Assembly (NCBI GenBank): GCA_017612805.1
Contig: JAGAFD010000010.1
Span: forward strand, 1-64,000
DNA from: Bacilli bacterium
GTDB taxonomy: Bacteria; Bacillota_I; Bacilli_A; RF39; UBA660
Direction: 5' to 3'
DNA length: 64,000 nt
The position numbers and the translations under genes were made by a program. Positions 5,986 through 47,517 of the stretch are shown here, piece by piece. The notes beneath the pieces are model-generated. The model saw nothing but the letters and a program-made list of their open reading frames with translations. It did not search any database and was not told the DNA's origin. How positions within the stretch are numbered: the first letter of the stretch is position 1; each line of letters starts with the position of its first letter.

Positions 5986-6073
5986 GTCAAGTGTGCGATT
6001 TTCATAATCGCACATTCGTATTTATCTTTAAAAATTTATAAAATTTTCTTGCACATTGAAAGGAGGATTCTTA

Positions 6074-7783: not shown

Positions 7784-9326
7784 TGAAAAAGGCGAAGAAG
7801 AATCCAATAGTGTAGGAAATCAAAGAAAATTAATTGATTATTATTTATTAGGAAAAAAGGATTTAACAGTTTATAAATATTATGTTGATGATGGTTATAC
7901 TGGAACTGATTTTAATAGACCTGGATACAAATCATTGCTAAATGATATAAAGAATAAAAAGATTAATGGAATAATAATTAAAGATTTATCTAGATTAGGA
8001 AGAAATTATATTTTGGTAGGCGATTTTTTAGATGAAATAGTTCCCACATATAATTTAAGGTTTATATCAGTTAATGATAATGTAGATAATTATATTAATA
8101 GAGATTCTATGGATTCATTGGAAATACCCTTTAAAAATCTTATGAATGAAAACTATTCAAGAGATTCATCTAAAAAAATGAGAAGTTCTTTAAAGGCTAG
8201 TAAAAAGTCAGGAAACTTTATAGGAAAATATGCTCCATTTGGTTATCTAAAAAATGATGATGATTGCCATAAATTTATAATAGATGATGAAGCAGCAAAA
8301 ATAATAAAACAAATATTTAAATTAGCTTTGTCTGGATTAAGTAAGCAAGAAATTATAAAAGAATTAAAAAATAAAAATATTCCAACACCTAGTGTTTATT
8401 TAAATCAAAAATACAATTTAAAATTAGTTAGAATAAGTAAAGTATGGAATACCGATATGATTGATATGATTTTAAAAAATGAAAACTATGTTGGTAATTC
8501 TGTTCAAGGAAAAAGAAAGAGAATCAGCCATAAGACACATAATATGGTAAGAATAGCAGAAGATGATTGGATTATATATAATAATCATCATAAAGCTATT
8601 ATAGATGAAAAAATATTTAATCAAGTGCAAGATGTTATGTATAACAGAAATAATAGAATTAATAATAAAGGAAATTATAATAAATATTGTGGCTTTTTAA
8701 GATGCTCTGAATGTGGTAGTAATTTGTATAGATTTACAACTAAGAAGAAATCTGGAACAGTACCTTTTTATTATTGTGGTACTTATGTTAAAACTAAGAA
8801 GTGTAATAAACATTTTATACAAGAAAAAGAATTAGATGAAGTAGTATTAGCTACTATAAATAAATATATAGAGTTAATATGTGATGTAGGGAAAAAAATT
8901 GATGATGTAGTTTATTACACAAAAGTTGAATACAACAAAGAAATAAAACAGATAAGACAAAAAGAAATAGAAAAAGAAGCTGCTAAATACAAAAAATTGC
9001 TAGATGATCTTGTAAAAGATTATCAATGCGATTATATAAATCAAGATGATTATGAAAACTTTAAAGAAAAATATTTATTTGAATTAAATAAATTAAATAT
9101 AGAAAAAGAAGATTTAAATAATAATATTAATAATTCATATAACTTAGATTGGATTAATGAATTTAAAAAAACAGGACAGGTAGAAAATATAGATAGAAAT
9201 ATTATTAATTCTTTTATTGAAAATATATTTGTTGGTGATAATAAAGAAATAGAAATCAAATTTAGATATAAAGATCAATATGAAGATGCACTAAGGTATC
9301 TAAAAAATCAAAATAATATGATATAA
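7740..9326 (+). CDS. Large serine recombinase 2 of E1
   Basis: This is a second large serine recombinase, 528 residues, encoded directly after and overlapping the first. The catalytic motif is YLRLS (Ser 13), followed by DLSRLGRNY, a recombinase domain, the zinc ribbon CSECGSNLYRF with a later YYCGTYVKTKKC, and a coiled coil. ATG 7740 with upstream GAAGGTG gives MKKWVVGVYLRLS, matching MSKWRFGEYLRLS of E2. Overlap with gene 1 is not a frameshift, because both proteins have complete catalytic domains. The pair may act together as a two-subunit integrase. Confidence 0.92.
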   Translation: MKKWVVGVYLRLSFDEKGEEESNSVGNQRKLIDYYLLGKKDLTVYKYYVDDGYTGTDFNRPGYKSLLNDIKNKKINGIIIKDLSRLGRNYILVGDFLDEIVPTYNLRFISVNDNVDNYINRDSMDSLEIPFKNLMNENYSRDSSKKMRSSLKASKKSGNFIGKYAPFGYLKNDDDCHKFIIDDEAAKIIKQIFKLALSGLSKQEIIKELKNKNIPTPSVYLNQKYNLKLVRISKVWNTDMIDMILKNENYVGNSVQGKRKRISHKTHNMVRIAEDDWIIYNNHHKAIIDEKIFNQVQDVMYNRNNRINNKGNYNKYCGFLRCSECGSNLYRFTTKKKSGTVPFYYCGTYVKTKKCNKHFIQEKELDEVVLATINKYIELICDVGKKIDDVVYYTKVEYNKEIKQIRQKEIEKEAAKYKKLLDDLVKDYQCDYINQDDYENFKEKYLFELNKLNIEKEDLNNNINNSYNLDWINEFKKTGQVENIDRNIINSFIENIFVGDNKEIEIKFRYKDQYEDALRYLKNQNNMI

Positions 9327-14627: not shown

Positions 14628-15443
14628 ATGAATGATAATATAAAAGATTTTCAAATATTTGGTATTACAGGTTATACTGTTATGTCAAATTATCACTTAC
14701 AAGATAGGAACTTATCAATAAAAGCTAAAGGTCTTTTATCATTAATGTTAAGTCTTCCAAAAACTTGGGATTATTCAATTAATGGATTGGTTACTTTATC
14801 AAAAGATGGTAGAGATTCAATAAAGAATACTTTAAATGAATTAAAACAAGCTGAATATATACAAATAGAGGAACATAGAGAACCAAATGGACATTTTAAA
14901 TATAAATATTCAGTTTATTATCTACCATATCCTAAATGGCTTGAAATGAGTAAATTAACCGAAGGTGGATTTACCGCATCGGTTGAACCGTCATCGGTAA
15001 ACCCCAAAGAAGAAAAGAATAATATAATAAAGAATAATAATAAAAAAGATAAAATAGATAAAACACAAGACCTTTCAATGCCTTGTGAAGAAATTAAACA
15101 TAATATTGTAACTAAAGAGCTTATTAGAAGAGAATATATTTCTGAAGATGATAGTAGCTCTTTTTTATTTGATGATTTATTTAATCAATTAATGGAAGAA
15201 GGTCATAATTATAAAGATTTATTAATTATGTCTAATTATATTGTATCAAGAATAAAAGATAGACATTTTAAAGATGAGAATAATAATGATATTCAAAATA
15301 GATATGGTTATTTCAAATATGCATTAATATCTAACATTAATAGATTTGAAAATATGCCAGATGAATTATTTTCACCAGATGACTTTTTTGATGACTATGA
15401 TTGGTTAAATGATCCAGAAGATGAGGAGGACTTAGAACTATGA
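14628..15443 (+). CDS. Replication-initiator-like protein with N-terminal winged helix
   Basis: This 271-residue protein has the N-terminal segment YTVMSNYHLQDRNLSIKAKG, then LLSLMLSLPKTWDYSINGL and KDGRDSIKNTLNELKQAEYI. This is typical of helix-turn-helix replication proteins of ICEs and phages (RepA_N/DnaD-like). The middle is low complexity (KKEEKNNIIKNNNKKDK type). The C-terminal region YGYFKYALISNINRF resembles the DUF6017-like tail of such proteins. It likely binds the element origin or helps load replication proteins. AGGAGG precedes ATG 14628. It is followed by a small gene overlapping by 4 nt and then ssb. Confidence 0.75.
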   Translation: MNDNIKDFQIFGITGYTVMSNYHLQDRNLSIKAKGLLSLMLSLPKTWDYSINGLVTLSKDGRDSIKNTLNELKQAEYIQIEEHREPNGHFKYKYSVYYLPYPKWLEMSKLTEGGFTASVEPSSVNPKEEKNNIIKNNNKKDKIDKTQDLSMPCEEIKHNIVTKELIRREYISEDDSSSFLFDDLFNQLMEEGHNYKDLLIMSNYIVSRIKDRHFKDENNNDIQNRYGYFKYALISNINRFENMPDELFSPDDFFDDYDWLNDPEDEEDLEL

Positions 15444-25801: not shown

Positions 25802-27916
25802 ATGAATACTTTATATGTAATAATTGCTATATTAATTGTTATTTTCTTAATTGGATTTATATATATAGAACCTATCTTAATGAAACATAAAGTTAAAAAT
25901 GATAATGAATATGGTTCAGCAAGATTTAGTACAGATGCAGAAATAAAACAAAACTTCAACAAAGAAAATGTAAATCACATAAAAGAGGCAGGTTTTCCTG
26001 TTTCTTTTAGTAAGAATTTAAAGTACATATATTTTGATAGAGAAACACCACATTATGTGTATTTAGGTTCTACTGGATCTGGTAAATCTGTGACTGCTGT
26101 AATTCCAACATGTACTTTTATTTCTAAAGCAAAGAAAAAAAGAAGTGTTTTTATCACCGACCCGAAAGGGGAGATTTATCAAACAACATCACAGATGTTT
26201 AAAAATCGTGGATATAAGATTATTACAATTGATTTTAGAAATCCAGAGTTATCAAATAAGATTAATATTCTTGAACCAATAATTGAAGAATATGAAGAGT
26301 ATATGAAATATGAAAAAAAATCAATTGAAATGCAAAATAAGATATCTCTATTAACTAATCAAAATAGTGAATTAAAAGCAAAATTAAAATCAATAAAACT
26401 AAGTGCAATTAATATTTCTAGAATTAATAATAAAATTGCCGATAATCAAAATATTATTAATGAACTTAATAATGAGAAAATGAATTACACAAATAATTCC
26501 ATGTCACATTATGCTGAAACTAATAGACTTATATCATCACTTGCAACAATGGTTATGCAAGAAAAAGTTGAACAAAAAGATCCATTTTGGAATGAATCAG
26601 CTAAGAATTTATTAGAAGGTTTAATTGGATTCTTTTTAGAAGAATATAAGGAAGGTAACATTACACGAGAAAAAATAACGATGACTTCTATTCGTAAGTT
26701 TCAAAATAGTTCTATGGAAGAAAATAATAATAAAAAATTTAAAGATTATATAAATAAAAAAGAATATGGTAGTAAATCAAAAGATGCTCTTGTAAGTATT
26801 TTAAGTGCTAGTGACAATACCTATAAATCAATTACAGCAGTATTTGGTCAAAAAATGAATATATTTGATGATATAAATGTAGCTAATGTAACAAGTATAA
26901 GTGATTTTAAATTTAATGAATTAGGTAAAGAACCTGTTGCTTTATATGTTATAGTACCTGATGAAGATAAGACATACTTTACTTTAGTTACAATAATTGT
27001 AGGTTTATTATATAGAGATTTAGTTAAACTTGCTAATAGTACAGAAAAGAAAAAACTACCGTATGAAATTGATTTTATACTAGATGAATTTGCAAACTGT
27101 CCTCCACTTGCAGATATTGAAGCAATTGTTTCAGTTGCAAGATCAAGAGGTATGCATTTTCATTTCTTCATTCAATCATTTTCTCAATTAGATAATGTAT
27201 ATGGCAAAGAAGTAGCACAAATTATTCTTGATAACTGTGGATTAGTTTATTTAAAAACAAATACACAAGAAACGGCAGAAGCTATTTCAAAGAGATTAGG
27301 AAAGAAAACTATAGAATCAAATAGTGTAAGACAATCAATGTCTTTATTAAATTATAATGGTGATAGATCTACTAATTTAATTGGTAGAGATTTAATGACA
27401 CCTGAAGAAGTAAAACAATTACATTATAAAACTATAATATTTCCTATAATTGGCTTTCCAATATTTAGAGATACAATTCTATATAATAAATTTAGTTGCT
27501 ATGAATCCGGCAAAGTAGAACGAGAAGCTTGTCCTTTAAAAAACTTATCTTATACTTATTTTACTGTTGAAAATATAAATCATGAAGTTCCTAATAAAAA
27601 GAGAGGAGCTACTAAAGATGAAAAAGAATATTATGCTCAATTAGAACTTGCAGATAAAGAAAATTTAAGACCAGTTGAACTAATTATAGAAAAGATATTT
27701 AAATTGGATTATGATATAAAATACAATGTCGAAGCTAATCATAGGGTTCACATGTCTGTAAAAATTAATAGAGAATTAAAACAAAGAGAAAAAACATTAT
27801 TAAGTACAAAAATAAAAACAGAATTTTATCATACTGAAATAAAAGAGGAAGAAGAAAAAACAATTATTAATATATATAATGAGAATCCTAATTTAAGTTT
27901 AGGTTTAAGAGGTTAG
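25802..27916 (+). CDS. VirD4/TraG-type coupling protein
   Basis: This 704-residue membrane ATPase connects the relaxase-DNA complex to the secretion channel. An N-terminal helix (LYVIIAILIVIFLIGFIYI) is followed by GSARFST. Walker A YLGSTGSGKSVT lies near residue 86-97, SVFITDPKGE near residue 116, and Walker B DFILDEFANCPPL near residue 424, followed by ARSRGMHFHFFIQSFSQL, all typical of TraG/VirD4. A coiled-coil insert of about 60 residues (about 170-230) is present. A terminator follows at once. It is the last conjugation gene of E2. Confidence 0.92.
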   Translation: MNTLYVIIAILIVIFLIGFIYIEPILMKHKVKNDNEYGSARFSTDAEIKQNFNKENVNHIKEAGFPVSFSKNLKYIYFDRETPHYVYLGSTGSGKSVTAVIPTCTFISKAKKKRSVFITDPKGEIYQTTSQMFKNRGYKIITIDFRNPELSNKINILEPIIEEYEEYMKYEKKSIEMQNKISLLTNQNSELKAKLKSIKLSAINISRINNKIADNQNIINELNNEKMNYTNNSMSHYAETNRLISSLATMVMQEKVEQKDPFWNESAKNLLEGLIGFFLEEYKEGNITREKITMTSIRKFQNSSMEENNNKKFKDYINKKEYGSKSKDALVSILSASDNTYKSITAVFGQKMNIFDDINVANVTSISDFKFNELGKEPVALYVIVPDEDKTYFTLVTIIVGLLYRDLVKLANSTEKKKLPYEIDFILDEFANCPPLADIEAIVSVARSRGMHFHFFIQSFSQLDNVYGKEVAQIILDNCGLVYLKTNTQETAEAISKRLGKKTIESNSVRQSMSLLNYNGDRSTNLIGRDLMTPEEVKQLHYKTIIFPIIGFPIFRDTILYNKFSCYESGKVEREACPLKNLSYTYFTVENINHEVPNKKRGATKDEKEYYAQLELADKENLRPVELIIEKIFKLDYDIKYNVEANHRVHMSVKINRELKQREKTLLSTKIKTEFYHTEIKEEEEKTIINIYNENPNLSLGLRG

Positions 27917-27942
27917 TCTTTATGGCTAACCTTCTTTTTTTT
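27911..27942 (+). terminator. Terminator of the conjugation operon
   Basis: GGTTAG (27911-27916) pairs with CTAACC (27926-27931), followed by TTC and a run of T residues. It overlaps the stop codon of the coupling-protein gene. Confidence 0.7.
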
Positions 27943-27952
27943 GCAATTTTTT

Positions 27953-27981
27953 TTGACAAAGCTCGACATAGGTGTTATACT
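27953..27981 (+). promoter_or_regulatory. Strong promoter for the UAGUA-repeat RNA
   Basis: TTGACA (27953-27958), 17 bp, TATACT (27976-27981) is a near-consensus sigma-A promoter. No coding ORF with an RBS follows; the structured RNA at 27986 does. Confidence 0.7.
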
Positions 27982-27985
27982 TATA

Positions 27986-28146
27986 TTGTTGTTAGCTACT
28001 GAAGTAGTATTGTAGTAGGTAGTAATGTAGTATGGTAGTATAGTAGTAGAAGTATTGTAGTAATGCAGTAAAGAAGTATTGTAGTATTGTAGTATAGCTA
28101 ACAACAAAGCAGTAGATCGTCTGCTAGTACAGGGACGATTTTTTTT
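27986..28146 (+). ncRNA. UAGUA-repeat non-coding RNA closed by a perfect 13-bp stem
   Basis: TTGTTGTTAGCTA (27986-27998) pairs perfectly with TAGCTAACAACAA (28095-28107). Between them lie about 96 bases made of imperfect GTAGTATT/GTAGTA repeats, nearly free of C, so this loop should be open. A terminator hairpin ATCGTC/GACGAT with eight T residues (28116-28146) ends the unit, and a near-consensus promoter begins it. AGCAG/CTGCT (28108-28112 with 28121-28125) could compete with the terminator. There is no plus-strand ORF with an RBS. It fills most of the gap 27917-28253. Confidence 0.6.
28116..28146 (+). terminator. Terminator of the UAGUA-repeat RNA
   Basis: ATCGTC (28116-28121) pairs with GACGAT (28134-28139), followed by eight T residues. 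Confidence 0.65.
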
Positions 28147-28182
28147 GTGCACTAGAAGATTACCTCGAATCTTTACACGAGA

Positions 28183-28211
28183 TTGACAAAAATGCCATTT
28201 TATGCTAGAAT
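28183..28211 (+). promoter_or_regulatory. Promoter for the ANL enzyme gene
   Basis: TTGACA (28183-28188), 17 bp, TAGAAT (28206-28211), about 40 bp before ATG 28254. GGAGGGG is the RBS. Confidence 0.65.
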
Positions 28212-28253
28212 AATGGGCATTAAAAAAGCGAAGGAGCTTTTGGAGGGGTTTAT

Positions 28254-30044
28254 ATGGGAAATAAGTATTGGAGAAGTACTCCAATCAAGGAGTTTAATGC
28301 TGAACAAACGATGTATTCGTTAGTTACTGATGAAGCAAAAAATGATTTAGATTTAGAAGCTGTAGGATTTATGGGTTCTTCTATGAAGTATGGAGAATTA
28401 TTTGAATCTGCAGATGCTTTAGCAAAATCATTTAAAGCTATGGGAGTTAAAGAAGATGACAATGTTGCAATTTTAACAATAAACATGCCATTAGTACAAC
28501 AATGCTTATTATCATTAAGTAAAATTGGGGCAACAATGTCTTGGATAGATTTAAGAACACAAGAAAGAGATATGGTTACATATATTAATAATACTAACAG
28601 TAAAGTTGTAGTAGTATTTGAAGATATGTTACCAGTTGTTCAAAATATAATTGATGATATAACAGCAGAACGAGTTGTAGTTGTATCACCAAAACAATAT
28701 TTAAATCCAGCTATTAGAGTTTTAGCTAATTTAAAAGATAAAAAAGAAGGTAAAAAGATTGTTATGCCTTCTGATGATAGATTTGTTACATATTCTGACT
28801 TTATAAAAGAAGGAAGACATACTGCTGATGTAAGTACTGCTAACTTTAAACTTGATAGACCATCACTTATTGTTCAATCAAGTGGTAGTACAGGTAAAGC
28901 AAAACAAATTGTTCATACTGAAAGAAATATAAATTCTCAAGTACAAAAAATGGCTTACATGGATTTTCCGTTTTATAAAGGAAATACAATGTTCGTTGCA
29001 GTTCCACCATTTATTATTTATGGTTTAGCTACTTCTACATATAGTAGTTTAGCATTTGGAATGAAAGCTGAAATGTGTCCATTTGTTGATGAAAACATAG
29101 TTTATAATAATTTAGGTAAATTTGATGTTTCATTTGCTGTACCATTACATTATAGATATGTTTATGAACAATTAACTAAATTAAGAAGTGATATTGATCA
29201 ATTACAAAAAAGTAATGATTTAGCTTCTAAAAAAGAATTAAAAACAAAATTAAAAGAATTAGATAGAATTTTAAAAGGTTTAGATAGAGCACAATTATTT
29301 GGATCAGGTGGAGATAAAATCACTTGTGAAGAAGTTGTTAATATGCAACATGCATTTAATGTTCCAATTGCTAATGGATTTGGTAACAATGAATGTATGG
29401 GACCTACAATAGTTTCACCTATGTATGTTAATAAACCAGGAACTGTTGGAGTGCCATTACATGGTATTGAAGTTAAATTTGTTAATCCAGAAACTGGTGA
29501 AGAAGTAAAACAAGGTGAAGTTGGTGAATTATATGTTTCATCAGATAGTTCATTCAAAGAATATTTAAATAATCCAGAAGAAACTAATAAAGTTAAAATT
29601 ACCGATGAAAATGGAAAACAATGGATAAAAACTGGTGACTTATGTGTTATGGATCAAGATGGATTTATAACTCCAGTTGGTAGAAGTAGAAGATTAATTA
29701 TTAGTGATGGATTTAAAATTGCACCAGATACAATAGAAGATGTAATTACTGCATTACCTTATGTAAAAGAATGTATTGTAGTTGGTGTTCCAGATGAAAA
29801 ACTTGGTACTGTTCCAATGGCATTCGTTGAGGTTGCTGAAAATGTTGATTTCAATGATGTAGCTGAAGAAATTAAAAATAAATGTGCTGAAACAATTCCA
29901 GCATATGAAATTCCTAAATACTTTGAACAAGTTGATGAAATCCCATATACTCCAAATGGAAAACATGATTTTAGAAAACTTGAAGAATTAGGAAAAACAA
30001 AAGTTGAAGAATTAAAAGGAACTGTTAAAGTTTTAAAAAAATAA
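28254..30044 (+). CDS. ANL-superfamily adenylate-forming enzyme
   Basis: This 596-residue enzyme would activate a carboxylic acid as an acyl-adenylate, usually for transfer to CoA or a carrier protein. The P-loop VQSSGSTGKAKQIVHT lies near residue 204, NGFGNNECMGPT corresponds to the A5 motif, and KTGDLCVMDQDGFITPVGRSRR near residue 462 holds the conserved Asp and hinge. YTPNGKHDFRKL carries the catalytic Lys near residue 571. An insert of about 35 residues rich in Lys and Leu (about 305-345) is present. No thioesterase, carrier or reductase is adjacent, so the substrate cannot be read. It has its own promoter and terminator, as a monocistronic cargo gene of E2. Confidence 0.88.
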   Translation: MGNKYWRSTPIKEFNAEQTMYSLVTDEAKNDLDLEAVGFMGSSMKYGELFESADALAKSFKAMGVKEDDNVAILTINMPLVQQCLLSLSKIGATMSWIDLRTQERDMVTYINNTNSKVVVVFEDMLPVVQNIIDDITAERVVVVSPKQYLNPAIRVLANLKDKKEGKKIVMPSDDRFVTYSDFIKEGRHTADVSTANFKLDRPSLIVQSSGSTGKAKQIVHTERNINSQVQKMAYMDFPFYKGNTMFVAVPPFIIYGLATSTYSSLAFGMKAEMCPFVDENIVYNNLGKFDVSFAVPLHYRYVYEQLTKLRSDIDQLQKSNDLASKKELKTKLKELDRILKGLDRAQLFGSGGDKITCEEVVNMQHAFNVPIANGFGNNECMGPTIVSPMYVNKPGTVGVPLHGIEVKFVNPETGEEVKQGEVGELYVSSDSSFKEYLNNPEETNKVKITDENGKQWIKTGDLCVMDQDGFITPVGRSRRLIISDGFKIAPDTIEDVITALPYVKECIVVGVPDEKLGTVPMAFVEVAENVDFNDVAEEIKNKCAETIPAYEIPKYFEQVDEIPYTPNGKHDFRKLEELGKTKVEELKGTVKVLKK

Positions 30045-32318: not shown

Positions 32319-33074
32319 ATGGGAAAGCTTTATTTATTAACTGGTGATTATATATTAAATTCCAAAGGTAAAGATGCCATTGTAAATGCTACAAATAAGT
32401 ATATGGCTTATGGAAGTGGAATCTGTGGAGTTATTTATCAAAATGCAGGACATAGTTTAGAAGAATATTGTCATAATACATTCCCAACTGATATGGTTAA
32501 TAATGAAGTTAGAATAACACCAGGATTTAACCTAAATATGGATATAATCCATGTGTTAGCCCCAAAAGCTTATGAAGAATCTAATCCAATAGAAGAATTA
32601 CTCAAAGGATATAAAAATATGCTTGATGAAATTTTAAAACATAATTATAAAAATGTTTTATTATGTAGTTTAGGAACAGGTATTCATGGATATAAACATG
32701 AAGATGTTGCAAGACCACTAATATTTTTATTAAATAACTTTTGTAAAATAAATGATGTTAATTTATATTTAAATAATATATATCCACTTTATAAAGATAT
32801 TTATTTAAAAGAATATTTAAACATTAATGCACTTAATTTGAAAAATGATTTATCTAAATTAGATATATCAAGTATGAAACAATATTTGATTGATAATTCA
32901 TTAAGAGAAAATGATATTAAAAATAAATATAAAGAATTTGTAAAAGATAAAGAATTAGAAGATTTATGTTTAACAGAAAAATTAATTTGTTTGCAATATA
33001 CATTAGATAATTTTGATGTTAACAAAGATCAAATAATGATATTAGTAGAAAGTATGGGTGATTTAGATGAATGA
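32319..33074 (+). CDS. Macrodomain protein (ADP-ribose binding or hydrolysing)
   Basis: This 251-residue protein has an N-terminal macrodomain: LLTGDYILNSKGKDAIVNAT, then NKYMAYGSGICGVIYQNAG (nucleotide loop) and LLCSLGTGIHGYKHEDVARPL (phosphate loop). Macrodomains bind or remove ADP-ribose. The C-terminal 90 residues are helical and unassigned. ATG 32319 has GTGGTG upstream; the longer frame from 32256 runs through a terminator and is rejected. It overlaps the GmrSD-like gene by 8 nt, so the two are co-translated. No DarT-type transferase is adjacent. Confidence 0.85.
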   Translation: MGKLYLLTGDYILNSKGKDAIVNATNKYMAYGSGICGVIYQNAGHSLEEYCHNTFPTDMVNNEVRITPGFNLNMDIIHVLAPKAYEESNPIEELLKGYKNMLDEILKHNYKNVLLCSLGTGIHGYKHEDVARPLIFLLNNFCKINDVNLYLNNIYPLYKDIYLKEYLNINALNLKNDLSKLDISSMKQYLIDNSLRENDIKNKYKEFVKDKELEDLCLTEKLICLQYTLDNFDVNKDQIMILVESMGDLDE

Positions 33075-35556
33075 TTTATTGTCATTAACTGATTTATTTA
33101 ATAGAGCAATATTTAGAATACCAGATTATCAAAGAGGATATTCTTGGGGAGATTTACAGTTAGAGGAGTTTTGGAGTGATATTTTAAATTTATTACCTGA
33201 AAGAGAACATTACACAGGTATGATTTCATTAAAAAAATTAGATAAAGAATATACTGATAAGGAACAATGGAATGATGAAAGATGGTTATTAGATAATTGG
33301 AATTATAATGCTTATCATGTTGTAGATGGACAACAAAGATTAACAACATTTATCATATTAATAAATGAAATAGTTAATTTTTACAAAAAAATTAATCCTG
33401 GAACAAATCCGAATCAAATTTTTGTGAATAGTATCCCATTAAATAAGATAGAAGAAGATTTTTTAGTAATATCAAAACCAGATTCAGCTGATATAATAAA
33501 GACATTTAAATTTGGATATGAAGTAGACAATCCCTCATATGAATTTTTTAAACATAAAATATTAGGTGAACCAAATTCTGGATTATTAAATGAAACATTT
33601 TATACATTAAATCTAGAAAACGCAAAAAACTTTTTTGCAGATAAATTAGAAGAAGAGTATAGTAAAAATGGTATTAAATCAATTGAAGATATATTTAAAA
33701 AAGTTACTCAAAAGTTAAAATTTAATATGTATTATATAGATAATGATTTTAATGTTTTTGTTGCTTTTGAAACTATGAATAATAGAGGTAAAAGATTATC
33801 TCATCTTGAATTGTTAAAAAATAGATTAATATATTTATCTACTGTATTTGACGAAGATGAAGACAATAAAAATGCTGTTAGAAAAAATATTAATAATACA
33901 TGGAAAGATGTATATGGTTATTTAGGAAAAAATAAAAATAAAGCATTAAGTGATGAAGATTTTCTTCAAGACCATTGGATTATATATTTTGGTTATACAA
34001 GATCCAACAAAGTAACTTATTCATCATTTTTACTTAATGATTATTTTAATCAAAATAATATTTCGGATAAATACATTATTAAAACTAAAGTAGAAGAAAA
34101 TAATGATGAATATAACGAATTAGAAAATCTAGATGTTTCTGAAATTGAAAATGTTGAAGATGAAAGTATAAGAGAAAATAAAAATGAAAAATTAACTTTA
34201 AACAGTATTAGTAAATATATCAATAGTATGAAGTCATTAATTCCTTATTGGTATATTGTTCAAAATCCAGATGATGATGAAATTGATAGTTCTATTAAAG
34301 TTATGTTGCAAAAATTAAATAGATTACAATTTGTTTATTTTAAGCCTTTAATAACTGTATTGTTATCTAAAAATGATATATCAACAGAAAAGAAAGTTGA
34401 ATGTTTGAAAAAGATAGAAAGATATATTTTCTTACACTTTAGATTAGTTAATTACCAATCAACATATAAGAACAGTTTCTTCTGGAATTTAGCCCATAAA
34501 TTTTATATGAATGAAGTTAATGTTGATCAAGTGATTGATGAAGTAAGTAAAATAGATTATTTAAGTGATAATAAAGTAGCTAATATGAATGGTATTTTAA
34601 ATAATATTACAAGATTGTTTAAAAACTATAAAGGATATTATTCATGGCCTGCAAGAACATATTTCTTGTATGAATATGAAACATATTTAATGAATAATCA
34701 AGCTAACCAAAAAATATATCCTGAAAATTTATTTAAAAAAGATGATAAGGATAAAGTTTCTATAGAACATATTTATCCTCAAACTGATACAGATGAATAT
34801 TGGGTTTCTAGATTTGGTAATTATACAGAATTAGAAAGAAAATATTTAAATGGCTCTTTAGGAAATTTACTACCTTTATCATTAAGTATTAATATTAAAT
34901 TGCAAAACTATTCATTTGATGATAAAAAACTTGGTAAGGATAGAACAAGAGGTTATATAAATGGTTCTCATTCGGAAATGCAAGTTGCAAAAGCTGATGA
35001 ATGGACTCCAGAAGAAATATTAAACCGTGGTTTAGAAATGATTAAATTTATGGAAGAACAATATGATTTTATTGTTCCAAATAAAGCAGATAGAATCAAA
35101 ATGCTAGGATTAGATTTCATGATTGATGAAGATGATGAAAATAGAGATGTAACAATAGCAGAAAATAATGAACAACAAAATATAACACAAAGAAAAGTTT
35201 CTTATTCTGAAGAAGACTATCATAGATTATCTGCAAGAACAAATCCGGCATTATTACCAATATATGAAGAATTGAATAAATATTTATTGTCACTAGGCGA
35301 TGATATTCAAAAAAATTCAACTAAACATTATATTGGTTATACTAATGGCAAATCTTTTGTTGAATTTCATTTTTGGTCTAATAATTTGTTCTTAACAATT
35401 ATGTCTGGTGAATATGATGACCCTAAACATAAAATTGTTAAATTAGATGAAAATTATAAATGGTCAAATATGAATAGACTAGATATATACGAAAATGATG
35501 ATATCGAATATATTAAAGGACTATTAAAACAAAGCTACGAAAAGACTAAAAGATGA
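33067..35556 (+). CDS. GmrSD-like (DUF262/DUF1524) nuclease with C-terminal DUF5655-like domain
   Basis: This 829-residue protein resembles type IV restriction enzymes that cut modified phage DNA. The DUF262 domain has FRIPDYQRGYSWGDLQLEEFW and VVDGQQRLTTFIIL (DGQQR near residue 87). The DUF1524 HNH nuclease has VSIEHIYPQTDTDEYW (His near residue 568) and LGNLLPLSLSINIKLQNYSF. The last 110 residues (LPIYEELNKYLLSLGDDIQ, SFVEFHFWSNNLFLTI) match the DUF5655-like tail seen on some of these proteins. Co-translation with a macrodomain gene suggests a defence pair in which ADP-ribose status may matter; that is inference. Confidence 0.87.
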   Translation: MNDLLSLTDLFNRAIFRIPDYQRGYSWGDLQLEEFWSDILNLLPEREHYTGMISLKKLDKEYTDKEQWNDERWLLDNWNYNAYHVVDGQQRLTTFIILINEIVNFYKKINPGTNPNQIFVNSIPLNKIEEDFLVISKPDSADIIKTFKFGYEVDNPSYEFFKHKILGEPNSGLLNETFYTLNLENAKNFFADKLEEEYSKNGIKSIEDIFKKVTQKLKFNMYYIDNDFNVFVAFETMNNRGKRLSHLELLKNRLIYLSTVFDEDEDNKNAVRKNINNTWKDVYGYLGKNKNKALSDEDFLQDHWIIYFGYTRSNKVTYSSFLLNDYFNQNNISDKYIIKTKVEENNDEYNELENLDVSEIENVEDESIRENKNEKLTLNSISKYINSMKSLIPYWYIVQNPDDDEIDSSIKVMLQKLNRLQFVYFKPLITVLLSKNDISTEKKVECLKKIERYIFLHFRLVNYQSTYKNSFFWNLAHKFYMNEVNVDQVIDEVSKIDYLSDNKVANMNGILNNITRLFKNYKGYYSWPARTYFLYEYETYLMNNQANQKIYPENLFKKDDKDKVSIEHIYPQTDTDEYWVSRFGNYTELERKYLNGSLGNLLPLSLSINIKLQNYSFDDKKLGKDRTRGYINGSHSEMQVAKADEWTPEEILNRGLEMIKFMEEQYDFIVPNKADRIKMLGLDFMIDEDDENRDVTIAENNEQQNITQRKVSYSEEDYHRLSARTNPALLPIYEELNKYLLSLGDDIQKNSTKHYIGYTNGKSFVEFHFWSNNLFLTIMSGEYDDPKHKIVKLDENYKWSNMNRLDIYENDDIEYIKGLLKQSYEKTKR

Positions 35557-36632: not shown

Positions 36633-39600
36633 ATGAATGAGAATGAAATATTATTAAATAAAGTGTTAGTTGGCAGGGTTAATCCAAAAATTTATGCTTT
36701 CTCAACTAATACAATACCTAATTATTTAAAAGTAGGAGATACTTATAGACCAGTATCAGTTAGATTAAATGAGTGGAAAGAAGTGTACCCAGAATTAAAG
36801 AAAGAATATGAAACTGATGCTGTAATTGATGATAAATTGTTCTTTAGAGATTATTCTGTTCATCAATTCTTAGAAAATGATCTTCATAAAAAAAGAATTA
36901 ATCCTGATGATTTTCCAAATATAGATTATATATCAACTGAATTCTTTAAAGATACAAAGGTTATTGATGTGCAAAAAGCTATTGATGATATAATTGAAAA
37001 TCCTAATAATTATAAATTATACGATGCGAGAGATTTATCAGTATACAGAACTGTATATCCTAGAACAAAGGATTTTGCTCCAAGAGAAAATCAACAACTA
37101 GTAATTGATAATTTTAAGAGAGTATATAAAACAAGAAAAAATTTATTAATGTATGCTGTTATGAGATTTGGTAAATCATTTACGGCTATGTGTTGCGCAA
37201 GAGAAATGAATGCTAAAGTTGTATTAATTGTTTCAGCAAAAGCTGATGTATCTGATGAGTGGCAAAAAACTGTTCAAGAACATAAGTATTTTGAAAACTT
37301 TGAATTTATTGATAAAAATATATTAAAATTAAGCAATACAGAAATTAAAAGGAGATTAGAGCAAAATAAAAGTGTTGCATTATTTTTAACATTACAGGAT
37401 CTTCAAATTGAAAAAGAAATACACAAAGAATTATTTGAAAACACCATTGATTTAATGATAATAGACGAATCTCACTTTGGAGCTAGAGCAAGTAAATATG
37501 GGAAAATAATTAAAGATGCAAAAAGTATCGATGAATCAAATGATGAAAAAGATGATGAAATTATTTCTTTTGAAAAAGCTGATAATCAAATTAGGAATAT
37601 TGAAAGAATATTAAAAATTGATGTTAAGCTTCATTTATCAGGAACACCATATAGAATTCTTTTAAGTGATGAGTTTGAAAAAGAAGATATAATTGCAAGA
37701 GTTCAATTTTCAGATATAATTGAAGCACAACATGAGTGGGATAAAAAGTATTTAAATGAAGAAAAATATGATGAATGGGATAATCCATATTATGGATTTC
37801 CACAAATGGTAAGATTTGCTTTTACACCAAGCAAGAATGCACAAAAAGTTTTAGCAGATTTGGAAGCAAAAGGTATATCATCTGGTTTATCAGAACTGTT
37901 GAGACCTTGTTCAACAATTAAAATTAATGATGACTATAAAAAATTTATTCATGAAAATGAAGTGTTTGAGTTATTAAGTGCAATTGATGGTTCTAGTGAA
38001 GATGAAAATATTTTGAGTTTTTTAAATTATAAAAAGATTAAAGAAGGAAAAATGTGCCATCATATAGTAATGGTTTTGCCTTTTAAAGCATCTTGTGATG
38101 CAATGGAACATCTAATATTAAATAATAAAGATAAATTTATTAATTTAAATAAATATGAGATACTAAATATATCAGGATTGGATAGTAGAAAAAAATATAA
38201 GAATACTGAGATTATAAAAAATAAGATAGAGCAATTTGAAAAAAATAATAAAATGACAATTACTTTAACTGTGAATAGAATGCTTACAGGAAGTACAGTA
38301 AAAGAATGGGATACAATGATTTTTTTAAAAGGAACTTCATCACCACAAGAATACGATCAAGCAGTATTTAGACTTCAAAATCAATTTATAAAAGATTATA
38401 TAATTGATACTGATGAAGACACAACAGAAACAAAAATTATTAAGTATAACATGAAACCCCAAACATTACTTATAGATTTTGATCCAAATAGAATGTTTAT
38501 TCTAGAGGAAGAAAAAGCATTTGTATCTAATTCTAGTGATGAATTAACGGGTAATGATTTATTAAAATCAAAATTAACTAAAGAATTATCAATATCTCCT
38601 ATAATTGTTATGAACAAGAATAAAATTCATGAAGTTGATGCTTTAGAAATAATGAATTTGATTAGAGATTATTCTAAAGATAAAGGTGTCATGGACGAAG
38701 TTTATAATATTCCTTCAGATTTTCGCTTATTACAAATTGATACAATCAAAGATATGATTGCTAAGCAGGGGGAAATTGGAAGTAAAAATCCATTTCAAAC
38801 TAGGTATGAATTTGATGGTGAAGGAGAAGATTATGACACTGGAGATGAAATTTTAGAACCTGGTGAAACACAGCAAAAAGAAAAACAAAATAAAAATATA
38901 ACTGATGAAAAAGCCAATCTAGAAAAAATTATTGATTTAAAATTTAAAACATATTACATGAGAATTTTATTTTATGCTGCTCTTACAAAAACTAAAGTTG
39001 ATAACATAAGAGATATTATAGATTCTATTAATAATGAAGAAAATATTAGAATATTTAATAATCTAGATTTAGATCACGAAATTTTAGAAATATTTATAAA
39101 ACATATGAATCCTGATATTCTAAAAAAATTGGAATATAAGATTTCTTCAATTAATGAATTATCTAATGATAAGACTTTAACTAAGTTGGAAAGAGCTATA
39201 GTTGCTTTAAATAAGTTTGATAGAATTTCAGATGCTGAAGTAATGACACAACAATCTGTATGTAATGATATGTTGAACACTATTGGCAAACAAGCAATAA
39301 TAAAAACTATTAAATCTGGCGGAAAGATATTAGATATTGCAAGTAAGAAAGCTGAATTTACTATTGCTATTGTAAATATGTTAATTGAAAATGGTGTAAA
39401 TAAAGATGATTATTGCAATTTACTATATTCTATACCAACTTCAAAAATAGCATATGAATTTACAAGAAAAATATATGAGATATTAGATTTAAATGTTGAT
39501 AATATTGCTGAAAATATAACTTCTTATGATTTGTTGCAAGTAAGAGATGGTAACAATATTAAATATGATGCAATATGCAATTATTTAACAAGAAATGTTA

Positions 39601-40679
39601 AATTTAAAGATATAAGTATGGAAGAAAATATATTTAATTCGAAAGGAGATGGTAATGTGAAATTTGATATTATCGTTGGAAACCCTCCTTATCAAGAAGA
39701 TGATGGAGGAGCAGGAGCAAGTGCTAGACCAATCTATAATCATTTTGTTAATATATCTAAAAAATTAGAACCTAATTATTTATCGTTAATTATACCATCT
39801 CGTTGGTATGTTGGAGGTAAGGGATTGGACGATTTTAGAAAATGTATGGTAAATGACTCTGAAATAAAAGAAATCCATGATTGTTTAACTCCAGATGATA
39901 TTTTTCCTAATACTAATAATCGTGGTGGGGTTTGTTATTTGCTATGGGATAGAAGTTATAATAATCAAGAAAATTTAGTTAAAGTTGTTTCACATTCAAA
40001 TAATAAAATAATAAATTCTTCAATTAGACCATTAAAGTTAATCGATGATGATATTTTTATCAGAGATAGTAAGTCTAAAACAATTTTAGATAAAGTAACT
40101 AATTATGATTTTGATAGTTTTGAAAATATAGTGTCTTCAAGAAAACCTTTTGGCTTAGATGGTAATTATGCCAAAAAACATAAAGACAGTATTAATGAGA
40201 CTAGCACTAATACTTTAAAATGCTATATCAAAGGTAAAAATGAAATATTTGTTAATCCAAATGATGTACAATCTCATCAGGAATGGGTTAATAATTGGAA
40301 GGTATTTATTCCAAGAGCTAATAATATAGGTACAGAATTAAATGATGATAATTTAAATTCATTTGTTGGTGAACCTAAAACTATTTGTAGTGAATCATAT
40401 ATTGTTGTTGGAGCAGACTTATTATTAGATAAAGTAGGAGCAAATAATTTGTCTAAATATTTACAAACAAAATTTTTAAGATATTTGCATATGCTTTTAA
40501 AAAGTAGTCAAGATGCTACATCTAAAACATTTAGTTTTGTTCCAATTCAAAATTTTGGAAATGATTCGGATATTGATTGGAATAAATCTATTGATGAAAT
40601 AGATGAACAATTATTCAAAAAATATAAATTATCAAAAGATGAAGTAGAACATATAGATAAATCGATTAAAAAGATGTAA
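36633..40679 (+). CDS. Fused T5orf172-type nuclease, helicase and N6-adenine methyltransferase
   Basis: This 1348-residue protein combines three activities. Residues about 18-50 (PKIYAFSTNTIPNYLKVGDT, RPVSVRLNEWK) resemble the T5orf172/GIY-YIG-like domain. A superfamily 2 helicase follows, with YAVMRFGKSFTA as Walker A near residue 176, LMIIDESHFGAR as Walker B, LHLSGTPYRI, and LTVNRMLTGSTVKEWDTMIFL in the second lobe. The C-terminal third is a methylase with GGKILDIASKKAEF near residue 895 and FDIIVGNPPYQED near residue 1014, then a target-recognition-like region. It looks like a restriction-modification enzyme of the Eco57I/type ISP style. It works with the upstream gene. Confidence 0.85.
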   Translation: MNENEILLNKVLVGRVNPKIYAFSTNTIPNYLKVGDTYRPVSVRLNEWKEVYPELKKEYETDAVIDDKLFFRDYSVHQFLENDLHKKRINPDDFPNIDYISTEFFKDTKVIDVQKAIDDIIENPNNYKLYDARDLSVYRTVYPRTKDFAPRENQQLVIDNFKRVYKTRKNLLMYAVMRFGKSFTAMCCAREMNAKVVLIVSAKADVSDEWQKTVQEHKYFENFEFIDKNILKLSNTEIKRRLEQNKSVALFLTLQDLQIEKEIHKELFENTIDLMIIDESHFGARASKYGKIIKDAKSIDESNDEKDDEIISFEKADNQIRNIERILKIDVKLHLSGTPYRILLSDEFEKEDIIARVQFSDIIEAQHEWDKKYLNEEKYDEWDNPYYGFPQMVRFAFTPSKNAQKVLADLEAKGISSGLSELLRPCSTIKINDDYKKFIHENEVFELLSAIDGSSEDENILSFLNYKKIKEGKMCHHIVMVLPFKASCDAMEHLILNNKDKFINLNKYEILNISGLDSRKKYKNTEIIKNKIEQFEKNNKMTITLTVNRMLTGSTVKEWDTMIFLKGTSSPQEYDQAVFRLQNQFIKDYIIDTDEDTTETKIIKYNMKPQTLLIDFDPNRMFILEEEKAFVSNSSDELTGNDLLKSKLTKELSISPIIVMNKNKIHEVDALEIMNLIRDYSKDKGVMDEVYNIPSDFRLLQIDTIKDMIAKQGEIGSKNPFQTRYEFDGEGEDYDTGDEILEPGETQQKEKQNKNITDEKANLEKIIDLKFKTYYMRILFYAALTKTKVDNIRDIIDSINNEENIRIFNNLDLDHEILEIFIKHMNPDILKKLEYKISSINELSNDKTLTKLERAIVALNKFDRISDAEVMTQQSVCNDMLNTIGKQAIIKTIKSGGKILDIASKKAEFTIAIVNMLIENGVNKDDYCNLLYSIPTSKIAYEFTRKIYEILDLNVDNIAENITSYDLLQVRDGNNIKYDAICNYLTRNVKFKDISMEENIFNSKGDGNVKFDIIVGNPPYQEDDGGAGASARPIYNHFVNISKKLEPNYLSLIIPSRWYVGGKGLDDFRKCMVNDSEIKEIHDCLTPDDIFPNTNNRGGVCYLLWDRSYNNQENLVKVVSHSNNKIINSSIRPLKLIDDDIFIRDSKSKTILDKVTNYDFDSFENIVSSRKPFGLDGNYAKKHKDSINETSTNTLKCYIKGKNEIFVNPNDVQSHQEWVNNWKVFIPRANNIGTELNDDNLNSFVGEPKTICSESYIVVGADLLLDKVGANNLSKYLQTKFLRYLHMLLKSSQDATSKTFSFVPIQNFGNDSDIDWNKSIDEIDEQLFKKYKLSKDEVEHIDKSIKKM

Positions 40680-44194: not shown

Positions 44195-44269
44195 TGATTA
44201 ATTTTGCACCTTATTATTTTTATATTAATTGAAATAAAATTTAATCATAATTTGAAAGGAAAGATTAAT

Positions 44270-45964
44270 ATGTCTGGTAGAGGAAATAAAAAACAAAGTC
44301 GTATTAATTCAAACAAACAATGGAAATTTGGAATATATACAAGAAGGTCTTTTGATGATCTTGATACATCAGAATCCAACACTATAACAAATCAAAAAGA
44401 ATTAGCTGTTGATTATTTAAAAGAAATAGCAAATTCTACGATAGTTGATTTTTATATAGATGATGGATATTCTGGTACTACATTTGATAGACCAAGTTTT
44501 AAAGAAATGTTTGATGATGTAATATCAGGTAGAATTAATGCAATTATAGTTAAAGATTTATCAAGACTAGGAAGAAATCATATTGAAGTTGGTAAATACT
44601 TAGAACAAATCTTTCCTTTATATGATCTAAGATTAATAGCAATTAATGATAGTGTAGATTCATTTTTAAGACCAGAATCATTAAATGATTTTATGGTTCC
44701 TATGAAAAATTTAATTAATGAAACTTATGCAAAAGATATTTCAAAAAAAGTGTCATCTTCATATTTAACTATGGCAAAGCAAGGTAAATTTGTATCTGGA
44801 ACTCCACCTTATGGTTATACTTTTGATCCAGAAGATAAACATCATTTAATTATAGATAAAGATGAAGCTGAAATTGTTAAACAAATTTTTACAATGGCAT
44901 TAAATGGCGATGGCAGGATTAAAATAAGTAAGTATTTAAATAATGAAGGTATTTTATGTAGAAAAGAAATTCAAAGAAGAAAAAAGAATAAATTACCATT
45001 AGATGATAAAAACATTAGTATTAAATATATGTGGAGTACATCTACTATAGGAAGAATGTTAGTGAGTGAAACATATATTGGTAATTTAGTTCAATTAAAA
45101 ACATATAAAAGAAGTTTTAAAGAACATAGAGAAATACCTAAAGCTGAAGAAGATTGGATTAGAGTTGAAAATACTCATGAGCCAATTATCACTAATGAAG
45201 AATTTAAAAAAGTTCAAAAATATATAAAAGAAAATACAAAAGCAAGAAAAACAACTGAAAAAGTTTATTCAATATATAATGGTAAATTAAAATGTGCTGA
45301 TTGTGGTAGGGCAATGTTAAAGCAAGATGATAATAGAGGAAACAGAAAAACTTCTAATTATTACTGTATGACACATTTGCATTTAAATAATTCTTGTTCA
45401 CCACATAAGATAAGAACAGAAGATTTAAATAATACTGTACTTGAAATGATTCAATTACAAGTAAAATTAGTTATTGAATTAGATAGAAGTGTTAAAAAAT
45501 TATTTTTTAAGAATAATAAAAATTTAATGGAAACAACATATAAAGATAACATTAGAATAGCAGAAATGAAATTAGAAAATCTAAAGAATAAAAAAAGAGA
45601 AACATATAAAGAATGGAAATTTAATTCAATAGATAAAAAAGAATTTGATTTAATTATGCGTGATATAGATTCAAAAATTAATAAACTAAATGAAGATATA
45701 GAAAGATATAATACATCATATCAGAAAGTAATTAAGAGAATTCGTAAAGAAGATTATTGGATTAATCATTATAAGAGGAATAGAAAAATTAAAAGATTAA
45801 CAAAAGAAATAATAGATGAATTAATAAAAACAATATTAATTAAAGAAGATGGTAGTGTTGTTATTACATTCAAATATCAAGATGAGTATTTAGGATTATT
45901 AAGTTATGTAGAAAATGAAGGAAGTGTTGAAACATGTCTAAGTGGAGATTTGGTGAGTATTTAA
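44270..45964 (+). CDS. Large serine recombinase 1 of E2
   Basis: This 564-residue recombinase starts MSGRGNKKQS, with ATG 44270 behind GAAAGGAAAG. The catalytic motif is YTRRS (Ser 27), with VKDLSRLGRNHIEVGKYLEQ in the resolvase domain, FVSGTPPYGYTFDPEDKHH in the recombinase domain, CADCGRAMLKQDDN plus YYCMTHLHLNNSC as zinc ribbon, and a C-terminal coiled coil. It closely matches recombinase 1 of E1. It overlaps recombinase 2 by 31 nt. Together they are expected to act on the att sites in rbgA. Confidence 0.93.
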   Translation: MSGRGNKKQSRINSNKQWKFGIYTRRSFDDLDTSESNTITNQKELAVDYLKEIANSTIVDFYIDDGYSGTTFDRPSFKEMFDDVISGRINAIIVKDLSRLGRNHIEVGKYLEQIFPLYDLRLIAINDSVDSFLRPESLNDFMVPMKNLINETYAKDISKKVSSSYLTMAKQGKFVSGTPPYGYTFDPEDKHHLIIDKDEAEIVKQIFTMALNGDGRIKISKYLNNEGILCRKEIQRRKKNKLPLDDKNISIKYMWSTSTIGRMLVSETYIGNLVQLKTYKRSFKEHREIPKAEEDWIRVENTHEPIITNEEFKKVQKYIKENTKARKTTEKVYSIYNGKLKCADCGRAMLKQDDNRGNRKTSNYYCMTHLHLNNSCSPHKIRTEDLNNTVLEMIQLQVKLVIELDRSVKKLFFKNNKNLMETTYKDNIRIAEMKLENLKNKKRETYKEWKFNSIDKKEFDLIMRDIDSKINKLNEDIERYNTSYQKVIKRIRKEDYWINHYKRNRKIKRLTKEIIDELIKTILIKEDGSVVITFKYQDEYLGLLSYVENEGSVETCLSGDLVSI

Positions 45965-47517
45965 GATTATCTTCTGAAGATAAAATAAAAGAAGGAGATG
46001 TATCTTATAGTATTGAAAATCAAAAGATGTTAGCAGAAATGGTTCTTAGTAATGAGAAAGATTCTAAAATATGCAAGTGTTATATAGATGATGGATTTAC
46101 AGGTACTGATTTTAATAGACCAGGATTTCAAGAATTAATAGATGATATCTATGCAAGGAAGATAAATGCAATTATAGTTAAAGATTTATCAAGACTAGGA
46201 AGAAATTATATAGCAGTAGGTGAATTTATTGATGAAGTCATTATTAAATATAATATAAGGTTTGTAGCAATTAATGATAATGTTGATTCATATTTAAAAC
46301 CAGAAACAATGAGTTCAATTGAAGTATATGTTAAAAATTTAATGAATGAAGGTTATGCAAAAGACACATCAAAGAAATTAAGGAGTTCTCATAAGACTAG
46401 TAAGAAGAATGGAAAGTACATTGGAATAATTGCTCCTTATGGTTATATTAAAGATGAAAATGATTGTCATAAATTTGTTCTTGATTATGGATCTGCTGAA
46501 GTTATTTCAAGAATATTTAATTATGCTATATTGGGTAAAAGTAAACAAGAAATAGTTGAAGAATTAAACAATACATGTACACTTACACCAAGTCAGTATT
46601 TTAGAGATATATTGAAATATAAAAGAGGAAGAGTTAGCACTAAATGGAATGTTAAAATGGTAGATGAGATATTAAGGAATGAAACTTATATTGGAAGTTT
46701 AGTGCAAGGGAAAAGGCAAAGAATTAGTCATAAGACACATAATATAGTAAGAGTAGCTGAAGATGAATGGATTATTGTTAAAAATCATCATGAACCTATA
46801 ATAAAAGAATCTATTTTTAATCAAGTTCAAAATATATTTTATAATCGTAATACAAAAGTTAGTTTTGATGGTACTTTTGCTCCATATTCAGGATATATAA
46901 AATGTAATGATTGTAAATGTAATCTTCATAGAAAAGTAAAAAAGAAAAATAATACAATATATTATTATTGTGGTACATATCTATCTAATAAAGGTTGTAG
47001 TAAACATTATATAACTGAAACTGAAGTTAATGAAGTTGTCTTAGAATCAATAAATATGTATGTTGATTTATTAAGTGATTTAAAAGAAAAAATAAATAAA
47101 GTATCTTTTACCAAGATTGAATATAATAATGATGTTAAAAATGCTAAGATATTAGAAATTTCTAAAGATATTGAAAAGCAAGAAAATTTAATTGAAGAAC
47201 TTAAAAATGATTATAAGAATGATTTGTTGTCTAAAGAAGATTTTGAAGATTTTCATAAACAATATATGTATGAATTAAATACATTAAGATTATTTAAAGA
47301 AGAATTAGTAAATGAAAAAGATAATAAATTTAATCTTAATTGGCTAAAAGAAATAAAAAAGTTGAATAAGATTAATACTATAACTAGAAATGTTGTAGAT
47401 GAGTTTATACAAAACATATATGTATGTGAAGATAAGAATATTAAAATAGAATTTAAGTATAAAGATCAATACGAAGAAGCTATTAAGTATCTAAAAACTC
47501 AGAAAAGTATGATATAA
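45934..47517 (+). CDS. Large serine recombinase 2 of E2
   Basis: This 527-residue recombinase starts MSKWRFGEYLRLS (Ser 13 in YLRLS), with VKDLSRLGRNYIAVGEFIDE, IGIIAPYGYIKDENDCHKF, the zinc-ribbon cysteines CNDCKCNLHRK and YYCGTYLSNKGC, and a terminal coiled coil. It matches recombinase 2 of E1. GAAGTGTTGAAAC precedes the ATG. Its stop codon lies inside the outward promoter that reads into rbgA. Confidence 0.92.
   Translation: MSKWRFGEYLRLSSEDKIKEGDVSYSIENQKMLAEMVLSNEKDSKICKCYIDDGFTGTDFNRPGFQELIDDIYARKINAIIVKDLSRLGRNYIAVGEFIDEVIIKYNIRFVAINDNVDSYLKPETMSSIEVYVKNLMNEGYAKDTSKKLRSSHKTSKKNGKYIGIIAPYGYIKDENDCHKFVLDYGSAEVISRIFNYAILGKSKQEIVEELNNTCTLTPSQYFRDILKYKRGRVSTKWNVKMVDEILRNETYIGSLVQGKRQRISHKTHNIVRVAEDEWIIVKNHHEPIIKESIFNQVQNIFYNRNTKVSFDGTFAPYSGYIKCNDCKCNLHRKVKKKNNTIYYYCGTYLSNKGCSKHYITETEVNEVVLESINMYVDLLSDLKEKINKVSFTKIEYNNDVKNAKILEISKDIEKQENLIEELKNDYKNDLLSKEDFEDFHKQYMYELNTLRLFKEELVNEKDNKFNLNWLKEIKKLNKINTITRNVVDEFIQNIYVCEDKNIKIEFKYKDQYEEAIKYLKTQKSMI

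Follow-up and report, generated by a model that had tools for sequence, protein, structure and literature searches.

The closest described systems are the following: (i) the mRNA leaders bound by the trp RNA-binding attenuation protein (TRAP), a multimeric protein that reads (G/U)AG every 4-5 nt; (ii) type III antitoxin RNAs and RNA anti-CRISPRs, i.e., small structured or repetitive RNAs of mobile elements that have their own promoter and terminator and whose CRISPR-like or antitoxin repeats have a length of about 36 nt; and (iii) the small RNAs (sRNAs) CsrB, CsrC and RsmZ, which are autonomous, present a repeated short motif in hairpin loops and linkers, have stems that are free to change, and differ in motif copy number between relatives. 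CsrB contains about 18 to 22 GGA elements located in loops or single-stranded parts (PMC7652899). CrcZ acts similarly: with its repeated motifs, this single RNA titrates Hfq, a global RNA-binding protein (PMC5501646).

The locus presented here lies in a window of 64,000 nt (the whole stretch of DNA that was analysed, from contig JAGAFD010000010.1 of a Bacilli bacterium). Judging from its sequence, it is most likely an autonomous small-RNA gene that gut Bacilli carry on integrative/conjugative and related mobile elements. It resembles CsrB, CsrC and RsmZ in the traits named above, with 1 to 14 motif copies among the members of its family, but its motif is GNAGUA instead of GGA and it is carried by mobile elements. 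Motif and element carriage also separate it from CrcZ, and Hfq was not found in the six carrier genomes searched. With the targets of TRAP it shares regularly spaced purine-rich repeats, which on the TRAP side serve a multimeric reader; nonetheless, its motif has 6 nt and recurs mostly every 8 nt, and the RNA stands alone. The RNA anti-CRISPRs and type III antitoxin RNAs have the same general build, but the repeats of the window RNA recur at 8 nt instead of about 36 nt, with neither a constant CRISPR-like repeat nor a recognised adjacent toxin gene.

The features of the locus are collected in Table 1. Directly upstream of the RNA gene, a VirD4-like gene (25802-27916) ends the conjugation operon; downstream, the cargo starts at 28254 and is preceded by a second promoter (28183-28211). 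A preliminary description of this DNA had proposed a near-consensus promoter, a perfect 13-bp stem around some 96 nt and a terminator, and all three were borne out: the promoter has 11/12 consensus matches, with similar promoters in the homologues; the arms enclose exactly 96 nt; and the terminator (28116-28146) reads ATCGTC-TGCTAGTACAGG-GACGAT-T8, which a standard terminator scan misses because the 10-nt loop exceeds its 8-nt limit. The array of repeats, then called GUAGUA-type, is also present, but its unit is GNAGUA, most commonly spaced at 8 nt, and not plain UAGUA. Since the +1 is expected at ~27988, transcription may begin only two bases into the 5' arm.

Table 1. Coordinates of the RNA gene and related features in the window.
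Feature	Position	Strand	Remarks
Replication-initiator-like gene (HTH_36)	14628..15443	+	Same element; lead only
Terminator of preceding conjugation operon	27909..27933	+	Intrinsic; insulates the RNA gene
Promoter	27953..27981	+	Sigma-70-type TTGACA-N17-TATACT, extended TG before -10
5' arm of 13-bp closing stem (TTGTTGTTAGCTA)	27986..27998	+	Perfect inverted repeat
Displayed array, 96 nt, 13 GNAGUA sites	27999..28094	+	Sites mostly 8 nt apart
GNAGUA starts in array	28001, 28004, 28012, 28019, 28027, 28035, 28043, 28049, 28057, 28065, 28073, 28081, 28089	+	
3' arm of 13-bp closing stem (TAGCTAACAACAA)	28095..28107	+	Perfect inverted repeat
Single-stranded linker with 14th GNAGUA site (AGCAGTAG)	28108..28115	+	Homologue consensus GUAGUAG
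Terminator hairpin	28114..28141	+	Covarying stem, invariant loop GCUAGUACAG (28123-28132)
Terminator U-tract (T8)	28139..28146	+	

The motif is strongly concentrated in this locus: the 163-nt transcript has 14 copies of GNAGTA (86/kb) vs. 1.5/kb on the same strand elsewhere in the window, where any stretch of 163 nt has 4 copies at most. The predicted transcript of ~160 nt folds better than 200/200 dinucleotide shuffles (z -4.2). The closing stem alone proves little, since an AT-rich window such as this one readily contains 13-bp perfect inverted repeats within 150 nt (6 found, ~2 expected); its weight comes from the homologues. An open reading frame on the reverse strand (27913-28284) was rejected, because the array has few reverse stop codons and an open frame is expected there.

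The RNA is independent of its neighbouring genes. In the window, it has its own promoter and terminator, with the terminator of the preceding gene upstream, and the gene downstream of the RNA lies on the opposite strand in 10/19 loci, so that in many of them there is nothing to attenuate. A competing hairpin, AGCAG/CTGCT, had been put forward as a possible control of the terminator, but its full pairing occurs in 13/19 RNAs, as would follow from the separate conservation of two motifs, and is lost in the remaining 6/19, including those with altered terminator stems. Both the orientation of the downstream genes and the loss of this antiterminator disfavour a cis-acting attenuator or riboswitch leader. 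The compact autonomous RNA gene of the preliminary description is, on the other hand, supported by the homologues, whose stems have changed while the displayed motifs were kept.

The homologues amount to 21 loci. They come from a single Bacilli family (14 genomes), from one further metagenome-assembled contig and from a viral contig of prophage-like character, and most of them sit on recognisable mobile elements. An exact-loop pattern search detected the RNA in 9/386 genomes of the family (controls: 0) and a covariance-model search in 17/385 genomes of the order, while a scan of named genomes gave seven matching contigs, mostly ruminant-gut assemblies, with L020 contributing an extra locus. 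No additional member turned up in genomes sampled from other parts of the class and phylum; one extra phylum-wide hit (L272) was set aside because it looks like a T-box terminator. The viral contig (L113) carries a short form of the RNA between an endolysin gene and the integration end. The pattern GTAGTAG plus loop had 77 matches in all in viral contigs, and those other than L113 were discarded as chance, all being without stems. The genome of the window (G000) carries a second copy of the RNA on another contig (C3:159141-159264), located between the end of a different conjugation module and a tetracycline-protection cargo gene. The cargo after this copy (L028; G000:C3, 142000-160882) has one glyoxalase-like and one PadR-like gene, along with the beginning of a ribosomal protection gene of tet(M/W/O/S) type that runs into the contig end.

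The family is previously undescribed and has no Rfam match: the window gave none at gathering scores and 8 homologous loci gave none at E<=1. BLASTN of the RNA against plasmid and phage records returned nothing significant, and a literature search found no paper with the terminator loop sequence or such an RNA. It is, very probably, a genuine conserved family of small RNAs borne by mobile elements.

Regarding these elements, several carriers (L026, L030, L032, L056, L059, L062) adjoin dacA-like genes, either truncated or whole, and some of these carriers have serine recombinases, which suggests that dacA is their integration site. In the window, two pairs of large serine recombinase genes (6056-9326 and 44204-47517) flank the conjugation and cargo region and, in consequence, two nested or tandem elements are possible. 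The window cargo (33067-35556 and 36633-40679) encodes a GmrSD-type restriction enzyme as well as an Eco57I-type restriction-methylation protein beside a macro-domain gene.

Two forms of the RNA can be distinguished: (i) long forms, found in conjugative elements, in which one 12-13-bp stem encloses 9-13 GNAGUA copies, with one more in the linker; and (ii) short forms, with 1-3 hairpins of unrelated stems that retain GNAGUA in loops and linkers. Co-variation of the stem in other elements, proposed beforehand as a check on the RNA, was indeed observed: the stems change with pairing kept. Thus, the closing stem of other long copies, including the second genomic copy, shows a compensatory change from TAGCTA/TAGCTA to TAGATA/TATCTA (C-G to A-U), and short-form stems such as AACCGAU, GCCGAU, AACCUAU and CAGUUAU carry the same loop G(C/U)AGUAAUGUAGUAU. 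The 19 RNAs contain a total of 99 GNAGUA copies vs. a mean of 3.3 and a maximum of 10 in shuffles, with 2 to 14 copies in most members, and neighbouring copies are most often 8 nt apart (35 pairs); in one relative (G295), the linker copy is the only one retained. The predicted unpaired fraction of AGUA in these RNAs is 0.52 vs. 0.28 for other positions, but in long arrays many motifs are folded by the model into weak A-U/G-U helices (0.36-0.51 unpaired) and hence are not fully open.

These data also bear on whether the locus acts as RNA at all. It could instead be a DNA element (iterons, a single-strand origin or a transfer origin) or a set of chance repeats, as its position at the end of a conjugation operon and the frequency of 13-bp inverted repeats in the AT-rich window would allow. 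This is extremely unlikely, since promoter, one-orientation hairpins with frequent G-U pairs and U-tract terminator occur together in most members, the stems covary around constant loops, and some members belong to elements without conjugation genes nearby.

The terminator hairpin is conserved in the same manner. Across the homologues, 97.4% of its stem cells are paired vs. 81.2% in shuffles, and its covariation score is 0.626 vs. 0.305; none of 500 shuffles reaches 0.626, and slid controls are far lower. The loop, GCUWGUAYAG, is nearly invariant while the stem takes many sequences. In one member, U3 and A9 of the loop are altered together, and this double change suggests a form with a bulged G, two inner pairs (C-G and U-A) and a WGUAY pentaloop (AGUAC in the window). 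A sarcin-ricin-like AGUA was rejected because UGUA is tolerated, and GUACAGGGA was rejected as a CsrA SELEX-like site because its GGA is lost when the stem covaries. The loop may be stable in itself or recognised by a factor; to our knowledge, it has no counterpart in CsrB/CsrC/RsmZ-type or other known systems.

The same hairpin is found beyond the RNA family. A hairpin-only model detected 43 sites in 32/386 genomes of the Bacilli family, some of them at the ends of protein operons and others in a second type of sRNA that contains GUUAAACCAUUUUACUUUACC. This second type, with the same terminator loop and a conserved GUUAAACCAUUUUACUUUACC (looser in some), occurs in L083, L084, L095, L096 and L065/L066 (G489, G076), in the last of which it adjoins an XRE-type regulator gene. 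The loop also ends several unrelated protein genes, apparently on mobile elements (L065 at 5700 on the minus strand, L080, L081, L064 at 7045, L067 at 3493, and L086-L094). A search of viral contigs for the loop with T6 after it had 39 matches, 8 of them with stems of >=5 bp, vs. 24 matches and none with such stems for the reversed loop. In 17 kb read of a 164-kb phage contig (IMGVR_UViG_3300001594_000002; L100, L108), 5/6 intrinsic terminators use a GCTAGTAYAG loop, with differing stems. Other unrelated viral contigs with the loop are L099, L101, L134 and L135.

Concerning the function of the RNA, it presents its motifs in loops and linkers of an autonomous sRNA, a likeness to CsrB, CsrC and RsmZ that is one of architecture only: the conserved motif is GNAGUA and the terminator GGGA is lost when the stem covaries. 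By analogy, then, the RNA would work like the CsrB-type sponges without being a member of the CsrB family. CsrA (PF02599) and Hfq (PF17209) were found in 0/6 carrier genomes searched, with positive controls, so the putative partner would be another protein. As no protein gene linked to the RNA in every locus was found, that partner would most simply be host-encoded.

A different possibility is a trans-acting antisense RNA or sRNA sponge, in which the GNAGUA copies would be repeated seeds for RNAs with UACUNC. Repeated short single-stranded motifs could indeed act as multiple seeds, and the second sRNA type with the same terminator contains UACUU-type stretches. Pairing at ribosome-binding sites, however, is disfavoured by 381 start regions sampled from part of the genome: UACUNC occurs in 2/381 of them (0.10/kb vs. 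0.80/kb in coding sequence), and strong duplexes between array and start regions number 97 vs. 123 +/- 11 for dinucleotide shuffles. Moreover, the dimeric complement in G000 is not beyond chance, and no complement of the terminator loop exists elsewhere in the window. This base-pairing role is rather unlikely. The multivalent platform envisaged in the preliminary description is supported by the homologues, which retain the displayed motifs while stems change, but the variant in which RNAs with UACUAC were the partners is not supported.

With attenuation and start-site antisense disfavoured, the remaining reading is that of a platform for protein. This is the most likely of the readings considered: the odds are about even that the RNA is a protein-binding sponge of mobile elements that titrates a sequence-specific protein. 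From the sequence analysis, we infer transcription, a protein as partner and titration as the effect. The ~160-nt transcript would consist of one or more stems that hold loops open, a linker and the terminator hairpin; its working part would be the repeated single-stranded GNAGUA with ~8-nt spacing. In this form, the RNA would capture a sequence-specific RNA-binding protein in many copies; this protein would probably be host-encoded, and neither CsrA nor Hfq, and its titration would benefit the mobile element. Neither tandem GNAGUA nor its complement is enriched elsewhere in the host genomes and, in consequence, no mRNA set from which the protein would be titrated is visible.

Control inside the element is another option: the RNA could regulate the copy number or timing of the element's own replication initiator, by protein binding or convergent transcription. 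A relative of the initiator occurs in 13/14 carrier genomes vs. 1/14 sampled non-carriers, shares a contig with the RNA in 16 loci and, in 5 loci, is convergent with an RNA that ends 20-33 nt from, or inside, the 3' end of the initiator gene. Nevertheless, the carriers were picked by the RNA, without a control gene, so this co-occurrence may only mark the element family; several relatives have no detectable RNA nearby, whereas the RNA is present but that initiator absent in L113 (which carries an unrelated replication protein) and in G295. On conjugative elements, some 13-22 kb separate the RNA gene from the initiator gene, whose product is a predicted DNA binder (HTH_36). Such internal control is, hence, quite unlikely.

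Very unlikely, too, is a decoy against a host RNA-acting defence or toxin, in which an endoribonuclease or an RNA-sensing system would recognise the motif. Elements and a prophage alike carry the RNA as an accessory gene next to cargo and defence genes, and mobile-element RNA decoys do exist, the precedent being the RNA anti-CRISPRs (PMC10651486); but, on inspection, nothing beyond the terminator resembles a constant CRISPR repeat.

The protein-platform reading can be extended, as a possible though doubtful proposal, to a network of RNA-based hijacking that involves neither CsrA nor Hfq: the family would disarm or recruit an undescribed GNAGUA-specific protein, and the terminator, with its bulged G and WGUAY pentaloop, would be a second recognition element common to element operons and phages of unrelated hosts. 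The carriers belong to a small-genome group in which RNA-based control is little known and, in those searched, CsrA and Hfq were not found. For such bacteria, a widely exchanged RNA with one motif repeated up to 14 times would be a direct bait for its putative RNA-binding protein. In turn, the terminator loop, whose sequence is kept while the stem changes and which is apparently reused by mobile elements and phages, may be an apical motif of unusual stability or one that is specifically recognised.
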